This document shows, piece by piece, positions 7,981-63,656 of a stretch of 64,000 bases of DNA. Location: contig NZ_CP017634.1 of the NCBI RefSeq assembly GCF_002777255.1, positions 2,306,903 through 2,370,902 on the forward strand. The letters are read 5' to 3'. Origin of the DNA: Candidatus Formimonas warabiya (GTDB taxonomy: Bacteria > Bacillota > Dehalobacteriia > Dehalobacteriales > Dehalobacteriaceae). Each line of letters starts with the position of its first letter. Within the stretch, counting starts at the first letter, position 1. The notes under the pieces are model-generated. The model was not told where the DNA came from and made no database searches. It saw only the letters and a list, made by a program, of their open reading frames with translations. A program made the position numbers and the translations under genes.

Positions 7981-8122
7981 CAAAAACATCTATCGTCGCA
8001 CCCTCCTCGGATAGATGTTTTCCCCCGTAATTCTCCCTATCCTTTGGCAGCCCGGCAATCATCACAAAAGTTTTAGACCCGTTAGCTTTGCGTCTCCGGC
8101 TTTCGCCGGATTTGCTCTTTTC
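7981..8122 (-). promoter_or_regulatory. c-di-GMP-I (GEMM) riboswitch with terminator, upstream of chemoreceptor
   Basis: The minus strand between 8122 and 8040 shows the GEMM-I pattern: GAGCAAATCCGGCGAAAGCC (P2 with GAAA tetraloop), then GACGCAAAGC, the CUAA segment, a second helix around GGGTCTAAAAC, and the GGGCTGCC closing element. Downstream, ACATCTATC pairs with GATAGATGT (arms at 8010-8018 and 7986-7994) before TTTTTG, a rho-independent terminator just ahead of the MCP ribosome site. It fills the 380-base gap between the MCP and the PHP gene. The sign of control (on or off) is not evident. Confidence 0.87.
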
Positions 8123-8348
8123 TAAGTCTCCGAAATCGACATTATTTCTATTATTTCGGCAATTTTTTCTATTTCCCTTTCATTGATCTAGTCCCACAGT
8201 AAAAAACAATATGTATTCCTAACGCTATGCCATGAAAGCATGAGATCTTGCTAATGGGCTATTTTGTAACACAACAATTATCCAGGCTTAACACAACCTT
8301 AATAAATCAAATTTACAATATGAGTAAAAGAAGAAAGGGGGTGAGACA

Positions 8349-50944: not shown

Positions 50945-51601
50945 ATGATCAAAACAAAAGACCGCTTTCATCAGTATGCTTGGGTGTTGTTAATCGCTTT
51001 TTGTAGCATTGGTTTAATCTATCCCGCCATCGGAGCCGTTGCTCTGGTTTGCATGCTCGCTCCGGTGCTATGGGGATTTTTTCAAGGCAGAATGTGGTGC
51101 GGAAATTTTTGTCCCAGAGGAAGTTTTAGCGATGTGATCTTAAAAAAATTCAGTCAAAAAAAACCGGTGCCGAAGTTTATCAAAAGCGGCTGGTTTCGAA
51201 ACTTGTTTTTGTTTCTTTTAATGAGTGCTTTTGCCCTCCAATTGGTTCTGTCCTGGGGTAACGCCTTCGCAACAGGAGCAGTATTCGTAAGAATGATTAT
51301 TATTACTACCATGCTGACAATTGTGTTAGATATCACCTTTTCTCACCGCACCTGGTGCAGAATCTGCCCCATGGGCAATCTGGCCCATTATGCCGCGAAA
51401 ACGAAAACACTGAAATCGAATTTGAGACAGATTACTTTTGATGCAGATAAATGTATCGGTTGTAAGGTTTGCTCCAAAAACTGCCCCATGGGTATTGACC
51501 TTTTAAGCCACAAAAGTCAGGGAAAAGTATTAGATGCTAATTGTTTAAAATGCAAGGTCTGCGTAGAAAAATGCCCCAGAAATTCCCTCTATGTCTCTTA
51601 A
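50945..51601 (+). CDS. Membrane 4Fe-4S binding protein (NapH/CcoG-like)
   Basis: 218 residues. Two N-terminal helices are followed by RMWCGNFCPRG, helices around FLFLLMSAFALQLVLSW and MIIITTMLTIVLDITF, then TWCRICPMG. Two ferredoxin clusters lie at the C-terminus (CIGCKVCSKNCPMG and CLKCKVCVEKCPRN). An electron-transfer module of the NapH type, carrying electrons at the membrane. ATG at 50945 with GAGGTG spacing 6-7. The CsoR-type operator ties it to copper or sulfur stress. Convergent with the dynamin-like gene (4-base overlap). Confidence 0.85.
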   Translation: MIKTKDRFHQYAWVLLIAFCSIGLIYPAIGAVALVCMLAPVLWGFFQGRMWCGNFCPRGSFSDVILKKFSQKKPVPKFIKSGWFRNLFLFLLMSAFALQLVLSWGNAFATGAVFVRMIIITTMLTIVLDITFSHRTWCRICPMGNLAHYAAKTKTLKSNLRQITFDADKCIGCKVCSKNCPMGIDLLSHKSQGKVLDANCLKCKVCVEKCPRNSLYVS

Positions 51602-53259
51602 ATCATCAAGTTATGGTATCTATTTTTAATATGGTCCATCCGTTTTAAAATAGAGGTGCTGTCCCCTTTATTTTTTGACAGCAGCATTTCCATTGTTTTC
51701 AATTCCCCGTTGATATAGGTCAATGCTTGCAACATTAAATGATCGATCTCCTGATTGATTTTTTCGTTCATATCTGAAGTGAGGCGGTGCAGATTCTTTT
51801 CAATTTCATACGGGATCCGGCTTAAGAAAAAACGCCGGAACACTCTCCGGTATAAGAACATGGGAAAAAAAAACCAAAACAGCTCCAAATGAAAGTCAAA
51901 AGACCTGCTCAGGGAAATGTCCGGTTTCTTTAACTCTCCCACGCTTATTTCCCACGCTTCCGGTTTCATTTGCACACCTAAAGCCCGGTCCAGGTTCTCG
52001 CTTAATCTTTCTCTAAATGATTTCAGGTAATAGGACAAGTGCTTTTTGACAGCATGGAGCAACTCAAAGGATTTTTCTTCTTCCAGCAAAAGTCCTTTGA
52101 ATTCAGTGTCCAGGGACTGGTTCAACCATTTCTCAAACTGTCTGGTTACCCTGTCAAGATTGCCCTTCCAGCCGGGAAAAGCAGTCTCATATTCTTTCGT
52201 AATTCTCTTTTCAATATCCTTACGAAAGGAATCCAGATAAATTTTTACACTCTCCCGTGTCTTTTCCTTATAGCTTCCCATAATCGCTAGAAGCTCTTGC
52301 CGGATGAAGTGAGCGTTCAAGTGCTCATCAAAAATTATCTCCTTCAGTTTGTTTTTTTCGGCTTCTTTTTTTAAAGAAGCCTGATAGGATATATTTAAAT
52401 AAGAAAGGCAGCTATGAACCACTGTCTCTATTTTATGATGCAGTATTTTCAGATAAGTTTCCCTCCGGTTCCGGGCTAGGGGCAGGAAAATATCCTTTTC
52501 CACCTGTTTATTATACGCACTGGTATTGATATAAGCCGAATACCTTAGAATTGTCACATCGCGAGCAAAAACCTCTTTGAGCGCTTTTCTGGTAAAGGAT
52601 GCAATTTCCTCTACTTGTTCTTCCTGGAACAGATCGGTTTTCGTAATCACAAGGGCTATTTCCGGCGAATATAAAGAAATTTCTTTAAAAAGGTTCAATT
52701 CATGCTCCGATATCGGCTTTTCGGCACTCAGAACAAACAGGACCGCTCCTGTTTCCGGGAACCAGTTCGACGTCGTTTCTGTATTATGCTTCCATACGCT
52801 GCCGATACCCGGGGTATCCACCAGCCTAATTTCCTTCATCTTATTTAAAGAAGGCACTTCAATATCTACCCGCATCACATTTTCCTTGTTTTCCGGGTTT
52901 TTGGATTCGGAAACATATTTCTCAATTTCATCGGTTGGGATGATCTTGCTTGTGCCATCCCGAAAAGTTACGGTTGCTTTTTCCCGCGGGCCAAATCCGA
53001 TTCTGGTGATGACGGAAGTTACAGGAATACTGCCTACCGGCAGTAAAGCTTGCTGCAGATAACCGTTTAAAAATGAGCTTTTCCCCGCCTTAAATTGTCC
53101 TAACACCGCGATATCCAGATATTGACGCTGATCGGTGAAATTATGGACACTCTGTACAACCTTTTTTAGAGAATCCAAGCGAAAATCTTCACACACTGCG
53201 TGAATTTCCTTCAGGATTTCTTTTGCCTGAAAAAGGGTTTGTTCATTCATCTCTCTCAC
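51598..53259 (-). CDS. Bacterial dynamin-like GTPase under fluoride riboswitch control
   Basis: A 553-residue dynamin-family GTPase. G1 GQFKAGKSSF is at about residue 55, G2 threonine in PVTSVIT, G3 DTPG near residue 148, G4 TKTD near 205. A long helical stalk follows, and a hydrophobic paddle (FHLELFWFFFPMFLYRRVF) near residue 470 can touch membrane. Bacterial members remodel or protect membranes. It stands alone behind a fluoride riboswitch (53298-53382) nearly identical to that of crcB, which makes it part of the fluoride response. Confidence 0.88.
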   Translation of the reverse strand: MREMNEQTLFQAKEILKEIHAVCEDFRLDSLKKVVQSVHNFTDQRQYLDIAVLGQFKAGKSSFLNGYLQQALLPVGSIPVTSVITRIGFGPREKATVTFRDGTSKIIPTDEIEKYVSESKNPENKENVMRVDIEVPSLNKMKEIRLVDTPGIGSVWKHNTETTSNWFPETGAVLFVLSAEKPISEHELNLFKEISLYSPEIALVITKTDLFQEEQVEEIASFTRKALKEVFARDVTILRYSAYINTSAYNKQVEKDIFLPLARNRRETYLKILHHKIETVVHSCLSYLNISYQASLKKEAEKNKLKEIIFDEHLNAHFIRQELLAIMGSYKEKTRESVKIYLDSFRKDIEKRITKEYETAFPGWKGNLDRVTRQFEKWLNQSLDTEFKGLLLEEEKSFELLHAVKKHLSYYLKSFRERLSENLDRALGVQMKPEAWEISVGELKKPDISLSRSFDFHLELFWFFFPMFLYRRVFRRFFLSRIPYEIEKNLHRLTSDMNEKINQEIDHLMLQALTYINGELKTMEMLLSKNKGDSTSILKRMDHIKNRYHNLMI

Positions 53260-53297
53260 TCCAGATCATCAAAGATTCTCTGAACAGCATGAAGCGA

Positions 53298-53382
53298 AAA
53301 ACAAAAATGACCCCTACCAAGTAGGGGCCATCAGCATGAGCGCATTTCAGTCAAATGACTGGGCGGGCACCATCACCAACCG
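53298..53382 (-). promoter_or_regulatory. Fluoride riboswitch 1 (dynamin-like gene)
   Basis: Minus strand: aptamer loop GGTGATGGTGCCCGCC (53362-53377), extra hairpin CAGTCATTTGACTG, then GCTGATGGCCCCTAC. The loop GGTGCC pairs with GGCCCC as the pseudoknot. GGCCCCTAC also pairs with GTAGGGGTC to form a terminator ending in TTTTTG, giving the usual fluoride-dependent antitermination. It lies just after the DUF190 stop. Confidence 0.93.
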
Positions 53383-53422
53383 GATGTTTTGGTTAAAATG
53401 TACCATATTTTTGTTCCTTCGT

Positions 53423-53797
53423 CTATATTTTGACCTTCAGCGTATTGCCATTGGCATATTTAATAATATTGACATCTTCCATGATCACCAATCCCTCTTT
53501 TACCACTTCATCCAGGAAAGGAAGCAACATTTGAATATATTCTGTACTATCAATGATGTCAATGGAAATAGGTAAATCGGAGGATATGTCCAAAATTCTC
53601 GCACTGTGTATTCTGCTGTGGGCCCCAAACCCTTCAATACCCCGGCATACAGTTGCTCCGGCGAGCCCTAATTCTCTCGCTTTTAATACGATGGCATGAT
53701 ACAAGGGAACTCCTTTATACCTGTCACTTTCCCCAATATAGATTTTAAGACGTACCGCCTGACCGGTAGCTTTTGTCACTCTCTTCACCCCTCTCAC
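53423..53797 (-). CDS. DUF190 protein paired with CrcB
   Basis: A 124-residue protein with a PII-like fold (RLKIYIGESDRYKGVPLYHAIV ... ATVCRGIEGFGAHSRIH). DUF190 genes are regular partners of crcB and may modulate the channel. GTG starts are possible at 53797, 53788 and 53779; the last has GAGGGG at 6 bases. It overlaps crcB at the end, so translation is coupled. Confidence 0.88.
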   Translation of the reverse strand: MRGVKRVTKATGQAVRLKIYIGESDRYKGVPLYHAIVLKARELGLAGATVCRGIEGFGAHSRIHSARILDISSDLPISIDIIDSTEYIQMLLPFLDEVVKEGLVIMEDVNIIKYANGNTLKVKI

Positions 53798-54191
53798 CTA
53801 TTTGGTTAAAAAAATTGGCTGCCCCTATGCCTAACCAGACAGAAAAAAGGCCTAAAATTACACTTGAGCCAACATAGAGGAGGGCCGTTCCCATACTTCC
53901 TTCTTTGATGAGATTAATTGTTTCCAGGCTAAATGTAGAGAATGTGGTATAAGCCCCAATAAATCCTACCGTAATCATCGTTCTAAACTGCGCATTGATC
54001 ACCGACTTTTCCAGGGACAAGGTATAGAATAATCCCAGCAAAAAACATCCTGTCAGATTCACCACAAAGGTACCATACGGGAAAACCTGCTCACTTTTAT
54101 TGTAGATCCAGGTGGAAATCAAGTATCTTGTTACCGCCCCAAAAGCTCCTCCCGCCGCAATGTAAAGATAAATGCTGTTAAAAAAAGACAA
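53745..54191 (-). CDS. crcB: Fluoride channel Fluc/CrcB
   Basis: Exports fluoride as a dual-topology dimer. 148 residues, four helices, with GGAFGAVTRY, the GTFVVNLTGCFLLG helix and the pore GFIGAYTTFSTFS phenylalanine-box region. Controlled by its own fluoride riboswitch 145 bases upstream. It overlaps DUF190 and heads the crcB-DUF190 unit. Confidence 0.95.
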   Translation of the reverse strand: MSFFNSIYLYIAAGGAFGAVTRYLISTWIYNKSEQVFPYGTFVVNLTGCFLLGLFYTLSLEKSVINAQFRTMITVGFIGAYTTFSTFSLETINLIKEGSMGTALLYVGSSVILGLFSVWLGIGAANFFNQIGERGEESDKSYRSGGTS

Positions 54192-54335
54192 CTAGCTCAC
54201 CCTTTCAAAAAAATGCTAAATATAAGCTTGATCAACTGGCATCATGGGCTTTCACAAAAGCAAGACAACTAATTTTTTCTACATAGAGATTCCCCCTGTT
54301 CCCTATTTTTTATGTACCCTGCTTTGATTACAGAT

Positions 54336-54440
54336 ACAAAATGGCCCCTACCAAGTAGGGGCCATCAGCATGATCGCATTTCAGTCAAATGACTGTGGCG
54401 GGCACCATCACCAACCGTGTTATGGTGAAATCATTATAAC
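54336..54440 (-). promoter_or_regulatory. Fluoride riboswitch 2 and promoter (crcB)
   Basis: Minus strand: GGTGATGGTGCCCGCC (54397-54412), hairpin CAGTCATTTGACTG, then GCTGATGGCCCCTAC and a terminator GGCCCCTAC / GTAGGGGCC with TTTTG at 54337-54363. TATAAT on the minus strand at 54433-54438 serves as the -10. The sequence is nearly identical to riboswitch 1 along about 75 bases. Confidence 0.95.
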
Positions 54441-54451
54441 ATACTTCCCCG

Positions 54452-55984
54452 TCATGTTGAATAAATTTCATGATCCGTTTCATTTAAATTATCCCTTCCG
54501 AATACCCTGTGATACAAATCCTCACCATAGCTTGTTTGCAGTGGTTCACCGACGATTAGTTTAAAAGTCCGTCCTCCGTCGGTCTGCCTTTCAGCCCACA
54601 GGAAAATGGCGTTTTCCATTTTTTTCTCATAAAAACCATGGGCCAATTGAGATAAATGGGTCACAAAGAAAACCTTGATGCGTTTTTCCAATAATGCGCC
54701 AACGATCTGTCTTGCAATCTCCGAGCCTTCCCTTTCGTTTGTCGCGGCAAATGACTCATTGAACAGGATGAGAGAATTCGGCGTGATATTATCTACGATC
54801 CCGCTCATTCTGCTCAGTTCTTCATCAAGTTTTCCGCTTTTCATCGTCGCGTCTTCTTCCCTTTTATAGTGCGTGAAAAGACCGGCACAGATGTTGGCAC
54901 AAAAAGATTGGGCAGGTACGAACATGCCGCATTGCATCATTAATTGGGCCAGGCCGATACTGCGCAAAAAAGTCGATTTGCCCCCCTGGTTGGCGCCTGT
55001 GATCATCACTAGATCCTTACTGTGCGCATTCACATCATTCCCCACAACTTTTTCTTTCATGGTTAAGGCCAGACAAACATCATATAAACCTGTAAAAGAA
55101 TGTTTACGTTCATGGGAAGCCACTGGCAGGGGAAAAGATATGGGTTCCCCTATTTGGGCCAGATACTCGGATAAATTTAAACAACCGACGTAAAAGGCCA
55201 ATTCGGTGCGCAACGCATCAAAAAAACTGCGCATATGATCGGCGGACTGGGCAAGAGCATTGGCCACAAGGTTGATCCCCCTGTTTTTTAATTCCGTCAG
55301 GGCTCTGGCGCCGCTTTCATCCCGGTCACTGATAGAAAAGGCATAAACAGGCGGTTTTTTGGCAAAAATCCGCTCTAGCCAGCTCTGTTTTTTGTCATGC
55401 GGTTTACGCAGGATGTAATGGGTACCTTCATTGCCTTTGCCCAATTCCGCGCTGATCAAAAGTCCGTCCCGGAATTTCAGTTCCCGGAGATGATTTTGGA
55501 TGCGGGCGAAATATTCCGCATCCAGTTCTTTCTCTACCATGGCAAAAAACCTGGTGAAACCTTCAGACTCAAATTTACCGGCATGTTCATCAGCGATATT
55601 TTTTATTCTTTTCAGCATGCCCGCTAATATCTGCATTATTTCTACCGCGTTATACAGGATCGAACTGGGATAGTAGCTGAAAAAGCCATAATAATGCTTT
55701 TTCTGTTCTTCCATTGCTTCAACCGCGATATTGTAAATGTCCCTGGTAAGGGAAGGGTTTTTCAGGCAATCCTGAAGAATTTTTTGGCGGTATAAGATGG
55801 CGTCCGGATCATTTAACCCGGACAAAAGGGCTTTCTTTGCCACTTCAAATAAAAATTCGTTACCCCGGGCCATGGCGTTGAAAAGCGTATTTAATTCCAG
55901 GTCCTGGGTCAGTGCCTTTTCATGTGACGGTAATTGCTGCTGGAGGTCAAAATCACAATCTTGGTACATGAGAAAAACCTTCAT
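54452..55984 (-). CDS. MutS-ATPase-domain protein, copy B
   Basis: 510 residues. A helical lever/clamp-like region (residues 1-340) is followed by a MutS domain V ATPase: Walker A GANQGGKSTFLRSIG, Walker B LILFNESFAATNEREG, and the H-loop FFVTHLSQL. It has no mismatch-recognition N-terminal domain. It starts at an ATGA overlap with copy A and has an AAAGGAG ribosome site, so the two are coupled and probably form a heterodimer. Lies in the fluoride riboswitch unit. Confidence 0.85.
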   Translation of the reverse strand: MKVFLMYQDCDFDLQQQLPSHEKALTQDLELNTLFNAMARGNEFLFEVAKKALLSGLNDPDAILYRQKILQDCLKNPSLTRDIYNIAVEAMEEQKKHYYGFFSYYPSSILYNAVEIMQILAGMLKRIKNIADEHAGKFESEGFTRFFAMVEKELDAEYFARIQNHLRELKFRDGLLISAELGKGNEGTHYILRKPHDKKQSWLERIFAKKPPVYAFSISDRDESGARALTELKNRGINLVANALAQSADHMRSFFDALRTELAFYVGCLNLSEYLAQIGEPISFPLPVASHERKHSFTGLYDVCLALTMKEKVVGNDVNAHSKDLVMITGANQGGKSTFLRSIGLAQLMMQCGMFVPAQSFCANICAGLFTHYKREEDATMKSGKLDEELSRMSGIVDNITPNSLILFNESFAATNEREGSEIARQIVGALLEKRIKVFFVTHLSQLAHGFYEKKMENAIFLWAERQTDGGRTFKLIVGEPLQTSYGEDLYHRVFGRDNLNETDHEIYST

Positions 55985-57516
55985 AATGTGATGCGCTCCT
56001 TTAAACACTCATAAGTAAGGCGGTACTTTTCCGCAATTGATATCGCGTAGGAAAGTCCGTCCGCAGGCCTTCTGACAATTTTATATGCTCTGAGGGCCGG
56101 ATTCTCGGGAACGATCGTGCTGACCATGCTTACGGTTTTCTCGCTCAAAGAAGCCAATTCATCCAGGAACGTAACGCAAACGCAGAGCAAATCCAATTGG
56201 CTTATTTTGTTCATGATCCTTTTACCTAAAAGAATAGCGTCTTTTAAGGTGGTAGAAGTAAAAATTTCATTCATGATGATGATGCTGTTTGATGTCGCCT
56301 GGCTTAGAATATCATAAACCCTGATCAGGTCATCCTGCAGTTTGCCGCTGAGATTTTTGATATCTTCTTCTTTTTCAAAATGGGTAAAGAGCCTGTCGCA
56401 AAGAAAAAGCTGCGCTTCCCTGCCCGGAACGGGACAGCCGATACCGGCCAGGTAATGCAATTGGCCGAAGGTGCGGGCAAAGGTTGTTTTCCCGCCCTGG
56501 TTGGGCCCGGATACTACCAATATACGCTCCTTGTCTTTCAGGTAAAAATCATTGCAGACAACAGGCAAATTTTGGCTCATGAGCTTATGGGCCAAGGCTA
56601 AATCAAATCCTTCAATATTATAGACTTCCTTGCTGGCATGGGACATGTGGGGATAACAAAATTCTAATCCCGTCCGTTTGAATTTGGCTAAATAGTCCAG
56701 ATAAGCGATATAGAATTGTACTTCCCGGTCAAAAATGTCTATCGTTTCATCCAGATAAGGGCCGTTTTTCAAGTAATAATGATTGAGATTAAAAAATATG
56801 TCGGGATACAGTTGGGCTACTAACTCCAGCACGCCCGCTTCCACATGGTTCATGCCCAACCCGGTGGGAAGCTTCGCCCTGTAATCTTTCACCGCGCCCT
56901 GCTTGAATTTCTCGAATGTTTCCTCCACATCTGCGCTGTAATCAATTTCTGATTCATATTTGCGCACTTTGATGCAGTTGCCCTTGATGAGCAGGCAATA
57001 TTGCACAGTAGACAAATCCGCTTTCAGCTTTTTCGTTTCCGCCATCAGTGCGGTAAAACCGGCAGATGCGGTATAGTCCATGATATATGCGCGGAAGGCG
57101 ATCAAGCCGGGGGATTTTAAATCAACAAGGGATAAATCATGGGCCAAACAAAGAAGGGCCTCGCCATAAAGGTCTACCGCCTCCAAAAACCATCCTTCTT
57201 TGTGATATTTGTAGTAAAGCCGGTCTACTAAGCTAAGATATCTGTGCATGGCGCGCATTTTTTGGGCAAATGATTTTATCTGCTCAAACAGGGTTTGATT
57301 TTCCAGATCCTGCATGATTTCCTGGCGGTACTTGATTGTTTCGATATCAGGCAAAGAAGTGTAGAAAAAGGGTTTTAAATCATATTCCTGTTTACCGGCC
57401 GTAATGGCGTCTATAATCTGATCAAGATTCAGATCAGCAAAGAAGGCGGGCGGTTCAAGCGTTTCTTTTTTGATGTCGTCTCCAGCTCTTTCAAATAGTA
57501 TGCTCTGGAAAGTCAC
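55981..57516 (-). CDS. MutS-ATPase-domain protein, copy A
   Basis: 511 residues, same layout as copy B: helical N-terminal region, then Walker A GPNQGGKTTFARTFG, Walker B SIIIMNEIFTSTTLKD, VTFLDELASL. The two share only partial identity, so the duplication is old. GTG start with AGGAGGAATA upstream. Preceded by fluoride riboswitch 3. MutS-like genes are among those reported with crcB-motif RNAs, yet why fluoride should induce them is unknown. Confidence 0.85.
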   Translation of the reverse strand: MTFQSILFERAGDDIKKETLEPPAFFADLNLDQIIDAITAGKQEYDLKPFFYTSLPDIETIKYRQEIMQDLENQTLFEQIKSFAQKMRAMHRYLSLVDRLYYKYHKEGWFLEAVDLYGEALLCLAHDLSLVDLKSPGLIAFRAYIMDYTASAGFTALMAETKKLKADLSTVQYCLLIKGNCIKVRKYESEIDYSADVEETFEKFKQGAVKDYRAKLPTGLGMNHVEAGVLELVAQLYPDIFFNLNHYYLKNGPYLDETIDIFDREVQFYIAYLDYLAKFKRTGLEFCYPHMSHASKEVYNIEGFDLALAHKLMSQNLPVVCNDFYLKDKERILVVSGPNQGGKTTFARTFGQLHYLAGIGCPVPGREAQLFLCDRLFTHFEKEEDIKNLSGKLQDDLIRVYDILSQATSNSIIIMNEIFTSTTLKDAILLGKRIMNKISQLDLLCVCVTFLDELASLSEKTVSMVSTIVPENPALRAYKIVRRPADGLSYAISIAEKYRLTYECLKERITL

Positions 57517-57635
57517 GGATCGTATTCCTCCTTTCTATTAGAAAACTTGGCTTGCGCCAAGCCTCTGGCGACGGCGGAAGCCCTAGTTGCACTTATACTT
57601 TCAACCTTTTGAAGCTAATAAATTCTGAAAGTAAA

Positions 57636-57712
57636 AAATAACTCCTACTCAAAGAACTGAGTAGGAGCTATTAGCTTGCGCATTTAAGGCGGGCTCCATC
57701 GCCATGATTATA
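57636..57712 (-). promoter_or_regulatory. Fluoride riboswitch 3 and -10 (MutS-like pair)
   Basis: Minus strand: TATAAT at 57707-57712, aptamer GGCGATGGAGCCCGCC (57688-57703), then AGCTAATAGCTCCTAC. Pseudoknot GGAGCC with AGCTCC. Terminator AGCTCCTACTC / GAGTAGGAGTT follows. TAATAG replaces the more common TGATGG, a mild deviation. Confidence 0.9.
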
Positions 57713-57748
57713 AGAGCTTACGGCGAAATCCAGCGTCTCCCCTTTCGC

Positions 57749-58171
57749 TTATTTAATCACCATCACCGGGACTTTGGAATAACTGACTACTTTTTGGGCA
57801 ATACTCCCCAGGATCATGCTTTTAAACCCGCCCACACCTCTGGTGCCCATAATAATGAGATCGGCTTTTTTATCAAAGGCATATTTCACGATGCTCCCTG
57901 CCGGATGGCCCCGTAATACAACGGAATTAATTTCTATTTTATTTTGCTCGCCAAATCCCTTGATTTCATCAAGCAGCGGTTTAATCATTTTTTCCGCATC
58001 CTTATATCCTTCATCGATCTCATCCAGAGAAGGGCTAAATTCCGGAGCCTGAATCACAGTGAGTGTAGTAACGGATGCTTCTAGTGCTTTTGCCAGGTAT
58101 ATAGCTGCTTCCAAGGCTCTTTTACTATAACCGGACCCGTCATAACCGACCACAATTTTACGGATTAACAT
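57749..58171 (-). CDS. Universal stress protein, UspA family
   Basis: A 140-residue nucleotide-binding stress protein: KIVVGYDGSGYSKRALEAA at the start, and the ATP-binding GTRGVGGFKSMILGSIAQKVV tail (G-2x-G-9x-G-S). It overlaps the antiporter gene by 14 bases and may regulate it, as Usp domains often do for transporters. Third kind of gene in the fluoride island. Confidence 0.93.
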   Translation of the reverse strand: MLIRKIVVGYDGSGYSKRALEAAIYLAKALEASVTTLTVIQAPEFSPSLDEIDEGYKDAEKMIKPLLDEIKGFGEQNKIEINSVVLRGHPAGSIVKYAFDKKADLIIMGTRGVGGFKSMILGSIAQKVVSYSKVPVMVIK

Positions 58172-59339
58172 GCTCCACGACCTCCTTAAATTCTCCTATG
58201 GGGGAAATAATATCGATCTCCTCATCCGGCACCGGATAAAAGAATTTCTGCGCGATAAGAGTGGGGACAATCGCGCTTAATATGACTGTTGCGACTAGGA
58301 CGCTGTATTGAGCCGTCGAAATATAATGATGGGTTAATCCATACAAAGAAGATATCGTGCCAAAGGTTAATCCTGTACTCATCAGCAGCGTGGTATAAAT
58401 ACCGTTTCGTTTCCCATAGCGAAAAAATTTTGTAGCGGGTAATACCCCTAAAAATTTTGCCAACGTTTTAAACAACAAGTAAATCAAGATGGCTCCAAGC
58501 ATTGTCACCAAGGCATGAAACGAAACAAGGACACCCGCTTTGATAAAGTAGAATGGCGTAAACGCTGTAAAAATAATCGCCCTGATCTTATACAGGGTCT
58601 CCTTATATTGGGTAAAAAAACCGGCCATCGCCATACCGATGATATAAGCGGGAAGCACTGCTTCACTGCCCCCGTATTGAGCTACAAAAGCCAGGAAAGC
58701 CAACATCAAAAAGACAAGTTTTATTTCCGGTTCACTGACCTTGCCGCTGTATTTTTGAAAGATCCTGGAGGCCAGAGGAGTACTGATGAACACGACCACG
58801 ATCAATATAGCCGCAAATATCCCCAGCTTCACCGTAAACCCCGTAAACAGCAATCCCAATGCCAACACGGTGCCCAGGTCATTCACAAAACAGGCGGCTA
58901 GAATCGCCTGACCTAATGAAGTAGAAGACAGTCCGCTTTCAATCATCACCGCATAAACTACTGCTACTGAAGTAGTTGACAATGCAATACCAGCAATCTT
59001 TGAGGCATTGAGATCCCAGTGAAATACATAATATGCTCCTGCCATACAGACTAAAAAAGGAAGTAAAAAAGCCAGTATGCCAATAACCATGCTCTCCCAG
59101 AAGTGTTCTTTAATCGTCCTCGGCTCAATTTCCGCCCCCGCCATAAATGTCAGAATAACGGCTCCAAATCCCGCCAGAAAATTGACCCAATCGGTAATTT
59201 CCAGGTGTATGATGTTCCCTGCTACTATTCCCACCATAATCTCGATCAAAGCTACAGAAATACCTACCCGAATAGAAATAAGGCTCGCAGTCAAAGCGCA
59301 AAACAGCCAGAGTGCGGCTACTAAATAACTATGCTCCAT
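58158..59339 (-). CDS. Cation:proton antiporter (Kef/CPA2 type)
   Basis: A 393-residue antiporter with about twelve helices (VEIMVGIVAGNI, FLAGFGAVILTFMAGAEIE, LAACFVNDLGTVLALGLLF, the last carrying the ND pair of the ion site). No C-terminal TrkA-N domain. Behind fluoride riboswitch 4. Na+/H+ antiporters are known members of fluoride regulons, where they help handle the acid load of HF entry. Confidence 0.9.
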   Translation of the reverse strand: MEHSYLVAALWLFCALTASLISIRVGISVALIEIMVGIVAGNIIHLEITDWVNFLAGFGAVILTFMAGAEIEPRTIKEHFWESMVIGILAFLLPFLVCMAGAYYVFHWDLNASKIAGIALSTTSVAVVYAVMIESGLSSTSLGQAILAACFVNDLGTVLALGLLFTGFTVKLGIFAAILIVVVFISTPLASRIFQKYSGKVSEPEIKLVFLMLAFLAFVAQYGGSEAVLPAYIIGMAMAGFFTQYKETLYKIRAIIFTAFTPFYFIKAGVLVSFHALVTMLGAILIYLLFKTLAKFLGVLPATKFFRYGKRNGIYTTLLMSTGLTFGTISSLYGLTHHYISTAQYSVLVATVILSAIVPTLIAQKFFYPVPDEEIDIISPIGEFKEVVEHVNP

Positions 59340-59399
59340 TTCTTATCCCTCCATTTTGATGATGATCACACAGTCTTGTAAAACCCCTTCTTTCTCCTT

Positions 59400-59462
59400 T
59401 CTTCATGAATTAGGAGTTATCAACTGCGAGCGCAGTGTTTCCAGGTGAACCCCATCGCCTTG
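59400..59462 (-). promoter_or_regulatory. Fluoride riboswitch 4 (antiporter-UspA)
   Basis: Minus strand: GGCGATGGGGTTCACC (59444-59459), P3 region ACTGCGCTCGCAGT, then TTGATAACTCCTAATT. Pseudoknot GGGGTT with AACTCC. Unlike the others, no strong terminator with T-run follows; a CTCC / GGAG hairpin is the only visible partner. The mechanism may be different. Confidence 0.85.
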
Positions 59463-59559
59463 GTCAATATTTCATGTTATCTAATTCCTGGTGCCGATGA
59501 GAAAAATACAGCATTCTATGACATTTACATAGTGATCCCCCCTTCTGACCTAATATCGT

Positions 59560-60237
59560 TTAAAAGCTATACGGTCTACCGTTAAGGAGTTCCATAGCGC
59601 GCACCCAAGCGGTTTGCTCTTTTCCTTTGGGCTCATGGTCGAACCTGTAATCCTGCTTGCGAAAGAATTCTCTAAATTCGCGATTCAAATCCTCCAGTCT
59701 TTGCAAGTGGTCTTCCAAGAGAAAAAGTCCAATTTCCGGCGGTGCAATTAAGAGCGTATTCGCACAGTGTTCCCAGCATAAGCCCGCGCTTTCACGGTAA
59801 AGTTCACGGTTTATAGGATCTTCAAATTTTCTGGCTATCATAGCGCTTCCATAAGTACCGGTCTTTTGAATCAAATCACAGACAGGACATGGCTCACTGG
59901 AGATAATTCTGTTGAGTTCTCTATGGGGGTCGTTCTTCTCTCTATAAGGAAAGATCTTTTTCTGTATTAAAGCGGTCTCCTGGAGAAACTGCTTTATTTC
60001 TTTCTGCCTGGTCCTGATAATAAATGCATACGTGTAATTCAAATCGGATTTAACAGATGCAGCAACCTGCTGGGCATGGTCACGGCAGAACCCTCCGCGA
60101 GACAGAGAAATCAGCAGCTCCAAAAGGTGATCGCTTTCATTTTCAAACCATCTGAAATAGCTGTCCATGCTCTTTTTTATCATGGTGCAAATGGGGCAGC
60201 CGGGCTGTTTAAATGCAGACTCTAAATCATATTCCAT
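59560..60237 (-). CDS. DUF6062 family protein
   Basis: 225 residues. Two matching halves with metal-type clusters: GCPICTMI and GGFCRDH in the first, PCPVCDLI and GLCWEHC in the second, so each half has a CxxC plus C-x-x-H set. This fits two zinc sites. The rest is helical. Start at ATG 60237, after GGGGAG. Behind the divergent riboswitch 5. Function unknown. Confidence 0.78.
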   Translation of the reverse strand: MEYDLESAFKQPGCPICTMIKKSMDSYFRWFENESDHLLELLISLSRGGFCRDHAQQVAASVKSDLNYTYAFIIRTRQKEIKQFLQETALIQKKIFPYREKNDPHRELNRIISSEPCPVCDLIQKTGTYGSAMIARKFEDPINRELYRESAGLCWEHCANTLLIAPPEIGLFLLEDHLQRLEDLNREFREFFRKQDYRFDHEPKGKEQTAWVRAMELLNGRPYSF

Positions 60238-60281
60238 CAAGATTTACTCCCCTTGTCCTTAAGAAATAAATGTCAAATTAA

Positions 60282-60374
60282 AAAAAGAAAAACTCCTGCC
60301 TGTATGTTACAGACAGGAGTCATCAGCGCCATTGCTACGCAATTTTGATTGTTCAAGGTCGACTCCTTGACCTA
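60282..60374 (-). promoter_or_regulatory. Fluoride riboswitch 5, divergent aptamer (DUF6062 gene)
   Basis: Minus strand: GGTCAAGGAGTCGACC (60357-60372), later GCGCTGATGACTCCTG. GGAGTC pairs perfectly with GACTCC, so the pseudoknot is kept. The terminator ACTCCTGTCTGT / ACAGGCAGGAGT with TTTTTC is present. But GATGG, invariant in the other six, is replaced by CAAGG. That touches a residue of the fluoride site. Confidence 0.72.
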
Positions 60375-60462
60375 TTCAATTTTTACGAATTCTGTTATTC
60401 TCGGTATTTGATATTATTATATTACATGATCATTAATTATGGTAGTAGAAAATAGGATATGG

Positions 60463-60572
60463 TATAATTGTTTTAGCTGAATGAGTATCTACCGGTGATG
60501 GTGCCCACCGCAGTCAAAGAGACTGAAACGCTAAGCTGATGGCTCCTACATGATATGTGGGAGCCATTTTTA
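60463..60572 (+). promoter_or_regulatory. Fluoride riboswitch 6 and -10 (interrupted unit)
   Basis: TATAAT at 60463-60468, aptamer GGTGATGGTGCCCACC (60494-60509), hairpin AGTCAAAGAGACT, AGCTGATGGCTCCTAC. Terminator GGCTCCTACA / TGTGGGAGCC with TTTTTATTG. The IS200 element begins about 8 bases after it. Confidence 0.93.
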
Positions 60573-60579
60573 TTGTATA

Positions 60580-61310
60580 ACGAAAACCACCTGCTATGCA
60601 GGTGGTTCCAAAAGGCTTTAGCTATGAGCAGAAAAAACTACCCCCATTTGATAAAATAGTGTAGGTTTCGCCAACCGCACTAACACAAAGGAGGTAGTTA
60701 TCCAAATGGATACCGAAAGTTTATCACATACGCAATGGAATTGTAAATATCACATCGTATTTGCACCAAAATATAGGAGACAGATAATATATGGAAAAAT
60801 TAAAGACGATATAGGAAAAATACTAAGGACACTATGTGACTACAAGAAAGTAGAAATATTAGAAGCAAACGCCTGCCCAGATCACATACACATGTTGGTA
60901 TCGATACCGCCGAAAATAAGCGTATCAAGTTTCATGGGATATCTTAAAGGGAAAAGCTCATTAATGATATTTGATAGGCACGCAAATTTGAAGTATAAAT
61001 ATGGCAACAGGCACTTCTGGTGCAGAGGCTATTATGTGGATACGGTGGGACGCAACAAAAAAGTAATAGAACAGTATATAAGAAAGCAACTACAAGAGGA
61101 TATAGCATCAGACCAGATGACACTAAAGGAGTATATAGACCCGTTTACGGGTGAGCCCGTAGACAAAAACAGTAAAAAATAACCCCTTTAGGGGTTGTTT
61201 GAAAAAAAGTGCAGTTGGTGGAACTTTTCAGTGAGCCTTTAGGCTCAGCCTGGTATCATGCCCTTATAGGGCTAGAGCAAACCACCCGCTGAGCGGGTGG
61301 TCATGATTTT
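60580..61310 (+). mobile_element. IS200-type insertion sequence
   Basis: About 730 bases. Subterminal hairpins ACCACCTGC-TAT-GCAGGTGGT (60587-60607) and ACCACCCGC-TGA-GCGGGTGGT (61281-61301) at the two ends, as in the IS200/IS605 family. Single transposase gene, no TnpB. Exact ends are not certain. Confidence 0.88.
60706..61182 (+). CDS. tnpA: IS200-type TnpA transposase
   Basis: A 158-residue Y1 HUH single-strand transposase. HUH is HIH in PDHIHML near residue 66, the catalytic tyrosine is in GYYVDTVGRN near residue 123. AAGGAGG ribosome site 10 bases before ATG. Full length and without frameshifts, so it may be active. It could be read through from fluoride riboswitch 6. Confidence 0.95.
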   Translation: MDTESLSHTQWNCKYHIVFAPKYRRQIIYGKIKDDIGKILRTLCDYKKVEILEANACPDHIHMLVSIPPKISVSSFMGYLKGKSSLMIFDRHANLKYKYGNRHFWCRGYYVDTVGRNKKVIEQYIRKQLQEDIASDQMTLKEYIDPFTGEPVDKNSKK

Positions 61311-61449
61311 ACGCGAGCCGGAATACCGGTAACAATGTTTTTATGGGAGGGCTGATAGGCTTCCCCCGGAGCTTGCCGATGGCCTGAAGACGGACTCAGG
61401 GACATCATGATTGTACGGATCTTTTTTATGGATAGGGGTGATTAATTCA

Positions 61450-61878
61450 ATGGAAAATAAAGAGCGTCGTCCAAAAACAGAAGTACAAGGTTTAAATGAA
61501 AACCATCTCAGAGTGATTTCCGGTACTCTCCGTTTAATCGAGAAAGATATGGATGAGATGGAAAGGTATCTCAGGAATGCCCCGCAAGGAAGAATGTATG
61601 AAACAAGAGACGATTTAACGGAGAGCCAAAAAGAAAAAGTATTAAAGATCATTAAAACTGTGAAAGAATGTATCAACGAATTTGCAAACATGCTCCATTT
61701 TGAGCCTAATCAAGAAAGTCTAAGTGGAATTATTCGGGGTACCTTATCGATCCATTGGGTCAATGCTTGCGATATTGAACCGAAAAAATTAAAAGCCTAC
61801 GGCATGGTTGATCCGGATAACATAGAGAGATTAAGTTTCTATACCCAAAAAATAATGGATCTTTTGCATGGCTTTTAA
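61450..61878 (+). CDS. Unknown helical protein originally downstream of fluoride riboswitch 6
   Basis: 142 residues, not recognised. Charged, mainly helical (NENHLRVISGTLRLIEKDMD ... TESQKEKVLKIIKTVKECIN). It contains a probable coiled-coil-like stretch and a C-terminal GMVDPDNIERLSFYTQKIM segment. ATG at 61450 has GGGGTGAT upstream. Only the IS200 element separates it from riboswitch 6, so it was probably a fluoride-induced gene before the insertion. Confidence 0.7.
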   Translation: MENKERRPKTEVQGLNENHLRVISGTLRLIEKDMDEMERYLRNAPQGRMYETRDDLTESQKEKVLKIIKTVKECINEFANMLHFEPNQESLSGIIRGTLSIHWVNACDIEPKKLKAYGMVDPDNIERLSFYTQKIMDLLHGF

Positions 61879-61979
61879 AAGAAGGTTTTGCATAATTCCG
61901 AAGGTAATCAAGCAGCAAAAGCTTCTTTGGTTTATATCTGCCGGCACCGGTTCTGTTATGATATCGAAGTAAAAGATCA

Positions 61980-62013
61980 GCCTCTCTCCCGGCATTCGCG
62001 GGAGAGAGGCTGC
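61980..62013. other. Stable hairpin between convergent genes
   Basis: CAGCCTCTCTCCC / GGGAGAGAGGCTG with an 8-base loop. No T-run on either side, so terminator function is unproven, although the place (3' end of two convergent genes) suits one. Confidence 0.6.
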
Positions 62014-62093
62014 CGCGAAACCAGCTTGTAATAGGGATAGACGTCTATTTTTTTGCTTGCTCCGGTTAAGATGCCAATTAGCGACTTTCCCAA

Positions 62094-63371
62094 TTATTTG
62101 ATAAGTGGGTTAACAAAATCGGCGCATTCTCCTAATTCCGCTTCAATCTCCAGCAAACGGTTATATTTGGCGATCCTTTCGCTCCGGCATGCAGAACCGG
62201 TCTTGATTTGCCCTCCTCCCACGGCCACTGAAAAGTCGGCAATAAAGGTATCTTCCGTTTCGCCGCTGCGATGGGAAATGACAAATCCCCATCCTGCTCT
62301 CCGGCATAAATTTATCGCCTCCATTGTTTCCGTGACAGTGCCAATCTGGTTTAATTTGATTAAAACCGCATTGGTGCTTTTTTCCTTGATTCCCCGGGTA
62401 ATGAAACGGGTATTGGTAACATATATATCGTCACCCACGATCTGAATTTTATCTCCCAGCAGTGCGGTATGCTGCCGGAACCCTTCCCAATCGTTTTCTG
62501 CTAATCCATCCTCAATGGAAACAATGGGATATTTATTCACCCATTCCTGATAAAGATTGTTCATTTGGCTGCTGCTCTTTTGTCCCTGCCCTGATTTTGC
62601 CAAGTGGTAGGAGCCCCTTTCATAGAAGGAACTTGCTGCAGGATCAAGAGCAATGGCAATCTCTTGCCCAGGTTTGTAACCTGCTTTTTCAATGGCCTCG
62701 GTAATGAGTTCGCAGGCTTCATCATTGCTTTTCAGATTGGGGGCAAATCCTCCCTCATCACCCACTGAAGTGTTATAACCCTTTTTACTTAGGATTTTCT
62801 TCAGGGCATGAAAGGTTTCACTCCCATACCTTAAAGCTTCAGCGAATGAGGGTGCGCCAACGGGCATCACCATAAATTCCTGAAAGTCCACACTGTTTTC
62901 GGCATGCTTCCCTCCGTTCAAAATATTCATCATCGGCACGGGAATCCGGCCGGCGCTGGGCCCACCGAGATACGCATATAAGGGCAGCCCCGCACTTGCC
63001 GCAGCAGCACGGGCTGCACACATGGAAATGCCAAGGATCGCATTAGCTCCCAGTTTTTCTTTGTTTTTTGTGCCATCCATTTCAATTAATAGTCGGTCAA
63101 TTTCTCTTTGTTTGGACGGGTCAAACCCCGTTATTTCTGGACCAATGATCTCGTTAACATTTGAGACAGCTTTTCGGACGCCTTTTCCCCCATACCGGTT
63201 TTTATCATGATCTCTGAGTTCAACCGCTTCATTTTCACCCGTTGAAGCTCCGGAGGGCACGGAAGCCGATACCATGATGCCATTATCCAAACCCATGAAT
63301 ACTCTTATCGTGGGATTTCCCCGAGAATCGAGGATTTCCATGGCCCGTACAGATTTAATCTTGTTACTCAT
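62094..63371 (-). CDS. eno: Enolase under fluoride riboswitch control
   Basis: Converts 2-phosphoglycerate to phosphoenolpyruvate; this reaction is the classic target of fluoride (with Mg and phosphate). 425 residues. All signatures are present: [11 protein letters not shown]-type start ([14 protein letters not shown]), [67 protein letters not shown]. Standing apart from glycolytic genes and behind riboswitch 7, it is presumably made to offset inhibition. It may be a second copy in the genome. Confidence 0.95.
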
Positions 63372-63404
63372 TTTCTCATCTCCAATTATTTATTTTATTT
63401 AAAT

Positions 63405-63441
63405 AAAAATACTCCACCCAGGTATTGTTCCCGGCAGGAGT
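63405..63441 (-). terminator. Second hairpin after riboswitch 7
   Basis: ACTCCTGCC / GGGTGGAGT with two mismatches, followed by ATTTTTATTT, between the riboswitch terminator and the enolase start. Tandem attenuation may be possible. Confidence 0.5.
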
Positions 63442-63447
63442 GAAAAG

Positions 63448-63531
63448 GAAAATAAAAAACTCCTGCCAAAAATTTGATGGGCAGGAGTTATCAACCCGTA
63501 AGGGTGGTTATCGGTGAACTCCATCACCTAT
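63448..63531 (-). promoter_or_regulatory. Fluoride riboswitch 7 (enolase)
   Basis: Minus strand: GGTGATGGAGTTCACC (63513-63528), hairpin AACCACCCTTACGGGTT, TGATAACTCCTGCC. Pseudoknot GGAGTT with AACTCC. Terminator AACTCCTGCCC / GGCAGGAGTT followed by TTTTTATTTTCC. It fills most of the 353-base gap between enolase and the small protein gene. Confidence 0.94.
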
Positions 63532-63656
63532 TGCTTATAGTACAATTTTTCCTTATTATCCCCAAAAAGTCAAGAAAAAATGATTTTAAAATAAATAAGG
63601 CTTTGCGGTGCTATCAGCTGTTTTTCGTAAGACACCGGAGATACTCTCTGGCATGA

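Follow-up and report, generated by a model that had tools for sequence, protein, structure and literature searches.

Fluoride regulation of the gene for a dynamin-like GTPase in the window (the whole stretch of 64,000 nucleotides that was analysed) is strongly supported by the class of the RNA that precedes it, and the family to which this GTPase belongs looks like a widespread, so far unlisted part of bacterial fluoride survival. The known defences of bacteria against fluoride are export, pH balance and the replacement of enzymes that fluoride inhibits. A dynamin under riboswitch control would extend them to the remodelling of membranes, and bacterial dynamins, whose triggers are to our knowledge mostly unknown, would gain a chemically simple inducer together with a phenotype that can be tested. 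A first-pass annotation, which proposed the riboswitch control of the GTPase, did not know dynamins as established members of the fluoride regulon, and our literature search on dynamins or GTPases together with fluoride riboswitches agrees with it, having returned no paper that places either in that regulon: Weinberg 2010 (PMC2864571), the E. cloacae operon paper (PMC5533749) and a 2024 review (PMC11139923) all name fluoride genes without a GTPase or dynamin among them, and the Baker 2012 supplement may list one. The elements on which the regulatory claim rests are the following.

51598..53250, minus strand: dynamin-like GTPase, 550 aa (PF00350 Dynamin_N, E 1.3e-24; AF2 model; fold matches)
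53306..53332, minus strand: intrinsic terminator (12-bp stem, 3-nt loop, T-run; z -3.75)
53315..53386, minus strand: fluoride riboswitch aptamer 1 (RF01734), belonging to the GTPase (30.1 bits with cmscan; E 4.7e-5 when 13.4 kb were compared with all 4227 Rfam families, E 5.3e-6 for RF01734 against the whole 6.44-Mb genome)

The GTPase gene starts with the ATG at 53250, which has a GGAG ahead of it (the alternative start is the GTG at 53259), and aptamer 1 ends 64 nt before this ATG on the same strand. The 5' strand of the terminator is at the same time the 3' pseudoknot strand of the aptamer, an overlap that gives the pair the layout of an ON-switch acting on transcription, fluoride being the expected ligand by virtue of the RNA class. 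All seven RF01734 matches of the 6.44-Mb genome fall inside a single 10.2-kb island (53315-63537), whose remaining features are listed here.

53423..53797, minus strand: DUF190 protein (PF02641)
53748..54191, minus strand: CrcB/Fluc fluoride channel (PF02537, TIGR00494), the only copy in the genome
54349..54421, minus strand: fluoride riboswitch 2, ahead of crcB-DUF190 (32.2 bits), with a terminator at 54366-54340 and a promoter-like site at 54460-54433
57655..57712, minus strand: fluoride riboswitch 3, ahead of a MutS_V-type ATPase pair at 54452-57516 (default-threshold Rfam scan and Pfam)
59404..59468, minus strand: fluoride riboswitch 4, ahead of a CPA2 antiporter and a universal stress protein (USP) at 57749-59339 (default-threshold Rfam scan and Pfam)
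60307..60381, minus strand: fluoride riboswitch 5, ahead of DUF6062 at 59560-60240 (Rfam scan against all families and Pfam)
60485..60555, plus strand: fluoride riboswitch 6, then an IS200-type transposase gene (default-threshold Rfam scan)
63475..63537, minus strand: fluoride riboswitch 7, ahead of enolase at 62094-63371 (default-threshold Rfam scan), this enolase being a second copy beside another elsewhere in the genome

The score of riboswitch 1 lies slightly under the Rfam gathering score of 34, and its absence from the default-threshold scan is due to a long linker insert that lowers the score; riboswitch 1 is a near-copy of riboswitch 2, which has the same insert and for that reason also remains below the gathering score. 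The conserved RF01734 core is nevertheless complete in riboswitch 1, and the single U.C mismatch of its pseudoknot recurs in the crcB copy. We considered whether riboswitch 1 might be a weak-score artefact and rejected this, since the sister copy carries the identical insert and the aptamers of relatives reach 55 bits with Rfam. Read along the minus strand, riboswitch 2 is followed by crcB, DUF190, riboswitch 1 and the GTPase, with the end of DUF190 only 37 nt upstream of aptamer 1 and on the same strand, and the sole good promoter match near riboswitch 1 (53562-53534) lies inside DUF190. We count riboswitch 1 as transcribed into the GTPase gene; the earlier assertion that this gene stands alone and belongs to no other unit is not established, as the GTPase may be either a separate unit or a riboswitch-gated third gene of crcB-DUF190.

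The association extends well beyond the window. Relatives were gathered by protein similarity alone across 149 relatives' genomes, a GTDB-based contig collection and 398 genomes of the phylum (the window GTPase as a single query retrieved no relatives from the contig collection, whereas an alignment-based scan did), and a covariance model made from 12 riboswitches, partly GTPase-linked, was run over the loci. Among 114 non-identical relatives, a set that includes some near-duplicates, the aptamer lies directly upstream of the gene in 61, at a median distance of about 39 nt, and at the head of the same-strand gene run, an apparent operon, in 24; no aptamer was found in 27, and 2 have too little upstream sequence. 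In one of these 27 (L156) the start codon had been called too far upstream and RF01734 lies 83 nt before the match, making the linkage direct, so that the riboswitch-linked total is 85 of 114 by script and 86 after this correction; homologues elsewhere do, therefore, sit near fluoride riboswitches. The same covariance model found no riboswitch at the 20 loci (L161-L180, about 157 kb) that served as controls from other dynamin-like families. The control list of the 114-member count had also picked up two fragments of family members (L088_6 and L158_3), and L158_3 is its single operon entry.

The linkage does not depend on the custom RNA model, since the association is still seen with RF01734 alone: a same-strand riboswitch lies within 6 kb upstream of 28 of the 42 in-phylum genes and within 400 nt upstream of 16 of them, a count made up of the listed matches plus those of the window and of genome G076. 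At the level of whole genomes, RF01734 is present in 38/40 family carriers versus 118/358 non-carriers among the 398 genomes of the phylum (Fisher p 5.7e-15), and in only 5/22 genomes with other dynamins. The GTPase-linked RNAs also look functional: across 58 directly linked aptamers the first stem keeps full pairing while varying among U-A, C-G, U-G and G-C, compensatory changes are seen in P2 (U-A/C-G/G-C) and in the pseudoknot (U-A/C-G), and a terminator-like hairpin occurs in 20 of the 58, starting inside the aptamer in 18 of them, where shuffles lead one to expect 0.15. A FastTree tree displays two well supported clades of 60 and 51 rows, with the riboswitch in 48 and 38, respectively (long branches meet in this tree, where clades A and B may form one clade), and the riboswitch label is strongly clustered on it, requiring 15 changes versus 41 in shuffles. 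Members occur in Bacillota, in several lineages named Deltaproteobacteria, in Spirochaetota and Actinomycetota, and in further groups; the Bacteroidota members are mostly without the switch (L070-L074, L063, L069, L077 and L079), and some of them may thus have a different role. An alpha/beta-hydrolase-type gene precedes the GTPase in five Bacteroidota members (type checked in one).

The protein itself is, on the evidence of profile matches and a predicted structure, a member of the dynamin superfamily, as the first-pass annotation had it, with a modelled fold nearest to mitofusin/Fzo1, IniA and BDLP. Its Dynamin_N match reaches 87.5 bits against a cut-off of 27, and the G1, G3 and G4 motifs (GQFKAGKS, DTPG and TKTD) are intact and conserved. 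An AF2 model computed from 58 family members (pLDDT 84.8, pTM 0.74) aligns with Fzo1 at Z 28.4 over 310 residues and 2.9 A, with MFN1 at Z 27.2, with IniA at Z 24.4 over 486 residues and 11.5 A, a deviation that points to a different bend of the stalk, and with BDLP at Z 17.6; the closest PDB profile match is also BDLP (2j68, E 6e-39). In the predicted structure, as in the full-length fold matches, a helical neck and trunk are packed from N- and C-terminal helices, and a hydrophobic-basic motif is conserved at the trunk tip between two long C-terminal helices, reading FHLELFWFFFPMFLYRRVFRRFF in the window and DLLWFLxPMFxFR in the family, the latter being the clade A form of a motif that differs between the two clades; confidence of the model is low just before this motif (below 50 at residues 432-445). 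The paddle of BDLP is likewise located between two long C-terminal helices.

With BDLP of Nostoc (2j68) and IniA of Mycobacterium (6j72) the GTPase shares the GTPase head, the long helical stalk and the overall fold, but identity is about 14%, expression is under a fluoride riboswitch and switch II has a signature of its own, DTPGxGS..HNT, found as DTPG[ILV]GS..HNT in 69/114 family members versus 0/34 controls. DLP1/DLP2 of Campylobacter (5owv, E 9e-32) belong to the same superfamily, yet DLPs are usually paired in operons (PMC6104087), whereas the present family is mostly encoded by a single gene. B. subtilis DynA, which serves in membrane surveillance (PMC8844932), is again of the dynamin superfamily and suggests a plausible role of that kind; however, DynA consists of two fused dynamin units (model length 1187) and the GTPase of one, and at 42.9 bits versus the cut-off of 1600 the latter falls outside the DynA equivalog (NF052648, DynmDynABac). 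What the GTPase shares with genes already assigned to the fluoride regulon (crcB, clcF, eno, ppa, uspA, antiporter, mutS and formate hydrogen lyase) is the riboswitch class, the islands and the operons.

These features would fit a fluoride-induced, membrane-acting bacterial dynamin-like protein that keeps the membrane tight or mends it, a reading in which we place about even confidence. A rise in cytoplasmic fluoride would lead the riboswitch to bind its ligand; the pseudoknot would then deprive the overlapping terminator of one of its strands, which would allow transcription of the GTPase gene. The product, with its GTPase head, a helical stalk like those of BDLP, mitofusin and IniA, and the hydrophobic-basic tip, would bind the cytoplasmic face of the membrane through this tip and, by GTP-driven assembly, tighten or mend the membrane as HF passes through it, acidifying the cell. 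It would thereby act beside the other arms of the regulon, namely export (CrcB), pH (antiporter) and enzyme replacement (enolase). Action at the membrane is something we infer from the fold, the tip motif and the precedent of DynA, and repair or leak control is our best guess as to its purpose; we know of no indication that fluoride breaks membranes as such. The earlier proposal of membrane repair agrees with the BDLP/mitofusin-like fold and the conserved hydrophobic tip motif, and its membrane role stays at the level of a probable attribute.

Whether the GTPase instead serves its neighbours can be judged from the family loci. Among the 114, the neighbours are CPA2 antiporter in 25, enolase in 24, USP in 20, MutS-like genes in 16 and 14, DUF190 in 15, CrcB in 12 and DUF6062 in 9, and at other loci a membrane H+-pyrophosphatase, an MFS transporter, or MoxR with DUF58. 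Recurrent operons (CPA2-USP-GTPase, crcB-DUF190-GTPase and CPA2-GTPase-crcB) would suit an accessory factor that helps to insert, cluster or protect CrcB or the CPA2 antiporter, but none of these partners is constant and many GTPases are alone behind a riboswitch, which makes such a role unlikely; the want of a constant neighbour argues for a function of the GTPase's own in the fluoride response. The patchy spread across phyla, which suggests transfer, could also mean that a GTPase of unrelated role has hitch-hiked in fluoride islands through their shared transfer; this is improbable, however, given that a riboswitch of its own generally precedes the GTPase, in many cases without a further fluoride gene next to it (e.g. 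L046, L048, L054, L183 and L185), and that L109 and L122 repeat the arrangement crcB-DUF190-[riboswitch]-GTPase, again with a separate switch for the GTPase. A membrane H+-pyrophosphatase gene stands in one gene run with crcB, DUF190 and a riboswitch-linked GTPase in L109, L106 and L191.

Other explanations start from the chemistry of the enzyme, fluoride complexes with GDP being established transition-state mimics for GTPases. AlFx, BeFx or MgFx with GDP might lock the GTPase, and fluoride would then raise its amount in compensation, much as with a spare enolase; the presence of enolase, a fluoride-inhibited enzyme, as a second copy in the island speaks for this dosage effect, as do the transition-state mimicry and the appearance of two GDP-AlF4 structures, 7c1o and 2gja, among the fold matches. 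Against it, the genome encodes no second strong Dynamin_N protein that the GTPase could replace (other matches are weak, at 22-30 bits, or up to about 40 with adjacent same-frame stretches), the phylum scan gave just one match for most family carriers, and the other dynamins of related genomes have no riboswitch link. Compensation for locked GTPases, the second idea of the first-pass annotation, is hence disfavoured and in our judgement quite unlikely, for the genome has an additional enolase, whereas a housekeeping dynamin that the GTPase might replace is absent; the spare-copy reading is rejected for this genome, where a second strong dynamin is lacking.

The same chemistry could act as a sensor at the level of the protein, a metal-fluoride complex with bound GDP locking the GTPase in its assembled state and turning on a membrane coat on top of the RNA switch. 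Dynamin-superfamily GTPases do dimerise in GDP-AlFx states and the switch II signature sets the family apart from the controls; nonetheless, cellular Al is scarce and the signature may mark common descent only, and we regard such sensing as very improbable. Slimmer still are the prospects of its elaborated form, a dual-layer actuator whose synthesis would depend on the RNA switch and which a GDP-metal-fluoride complex in the distinct switch II would afterwards lock into a membrane coat, confining membrane protection to the time when fluoride is inside the cell. We retain the fluoride-induced, membrane-acting dynamin as the preferred reading.

Several further observations concern the surroundings of the gene. 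In the two adjacent minus-strand proteins at 54452-57516 no Pfam domain other than the MutS ATPase exceeds its cut-off; they bear a weak likeness to KamC reactivase, and this MutS-type pair is recurrent in fluoride islands of other phyla. DUF6062 (59560-60240, minus strand), a Cys-pair protein of unknown function behind its own fluoride riboswitch, occurs in operons with the GTPase at L014, L034, L188-L190 and L192. At 60485-61182 on the plus strand, riboswitch 6 and an IS200-type Y1 transposase gene directly behind it lie together, with an STnc490-like hairpin under the gathering score at 60585-60708; insertion of the transposase probably severed the riboswitch from its gene, and the open reading frame at 61411-61878 gave no Pfam match. 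Outside the island, a c-di-GMP-I riboswitch lies at 8043-8126 on the minus strand (73.8 bits).
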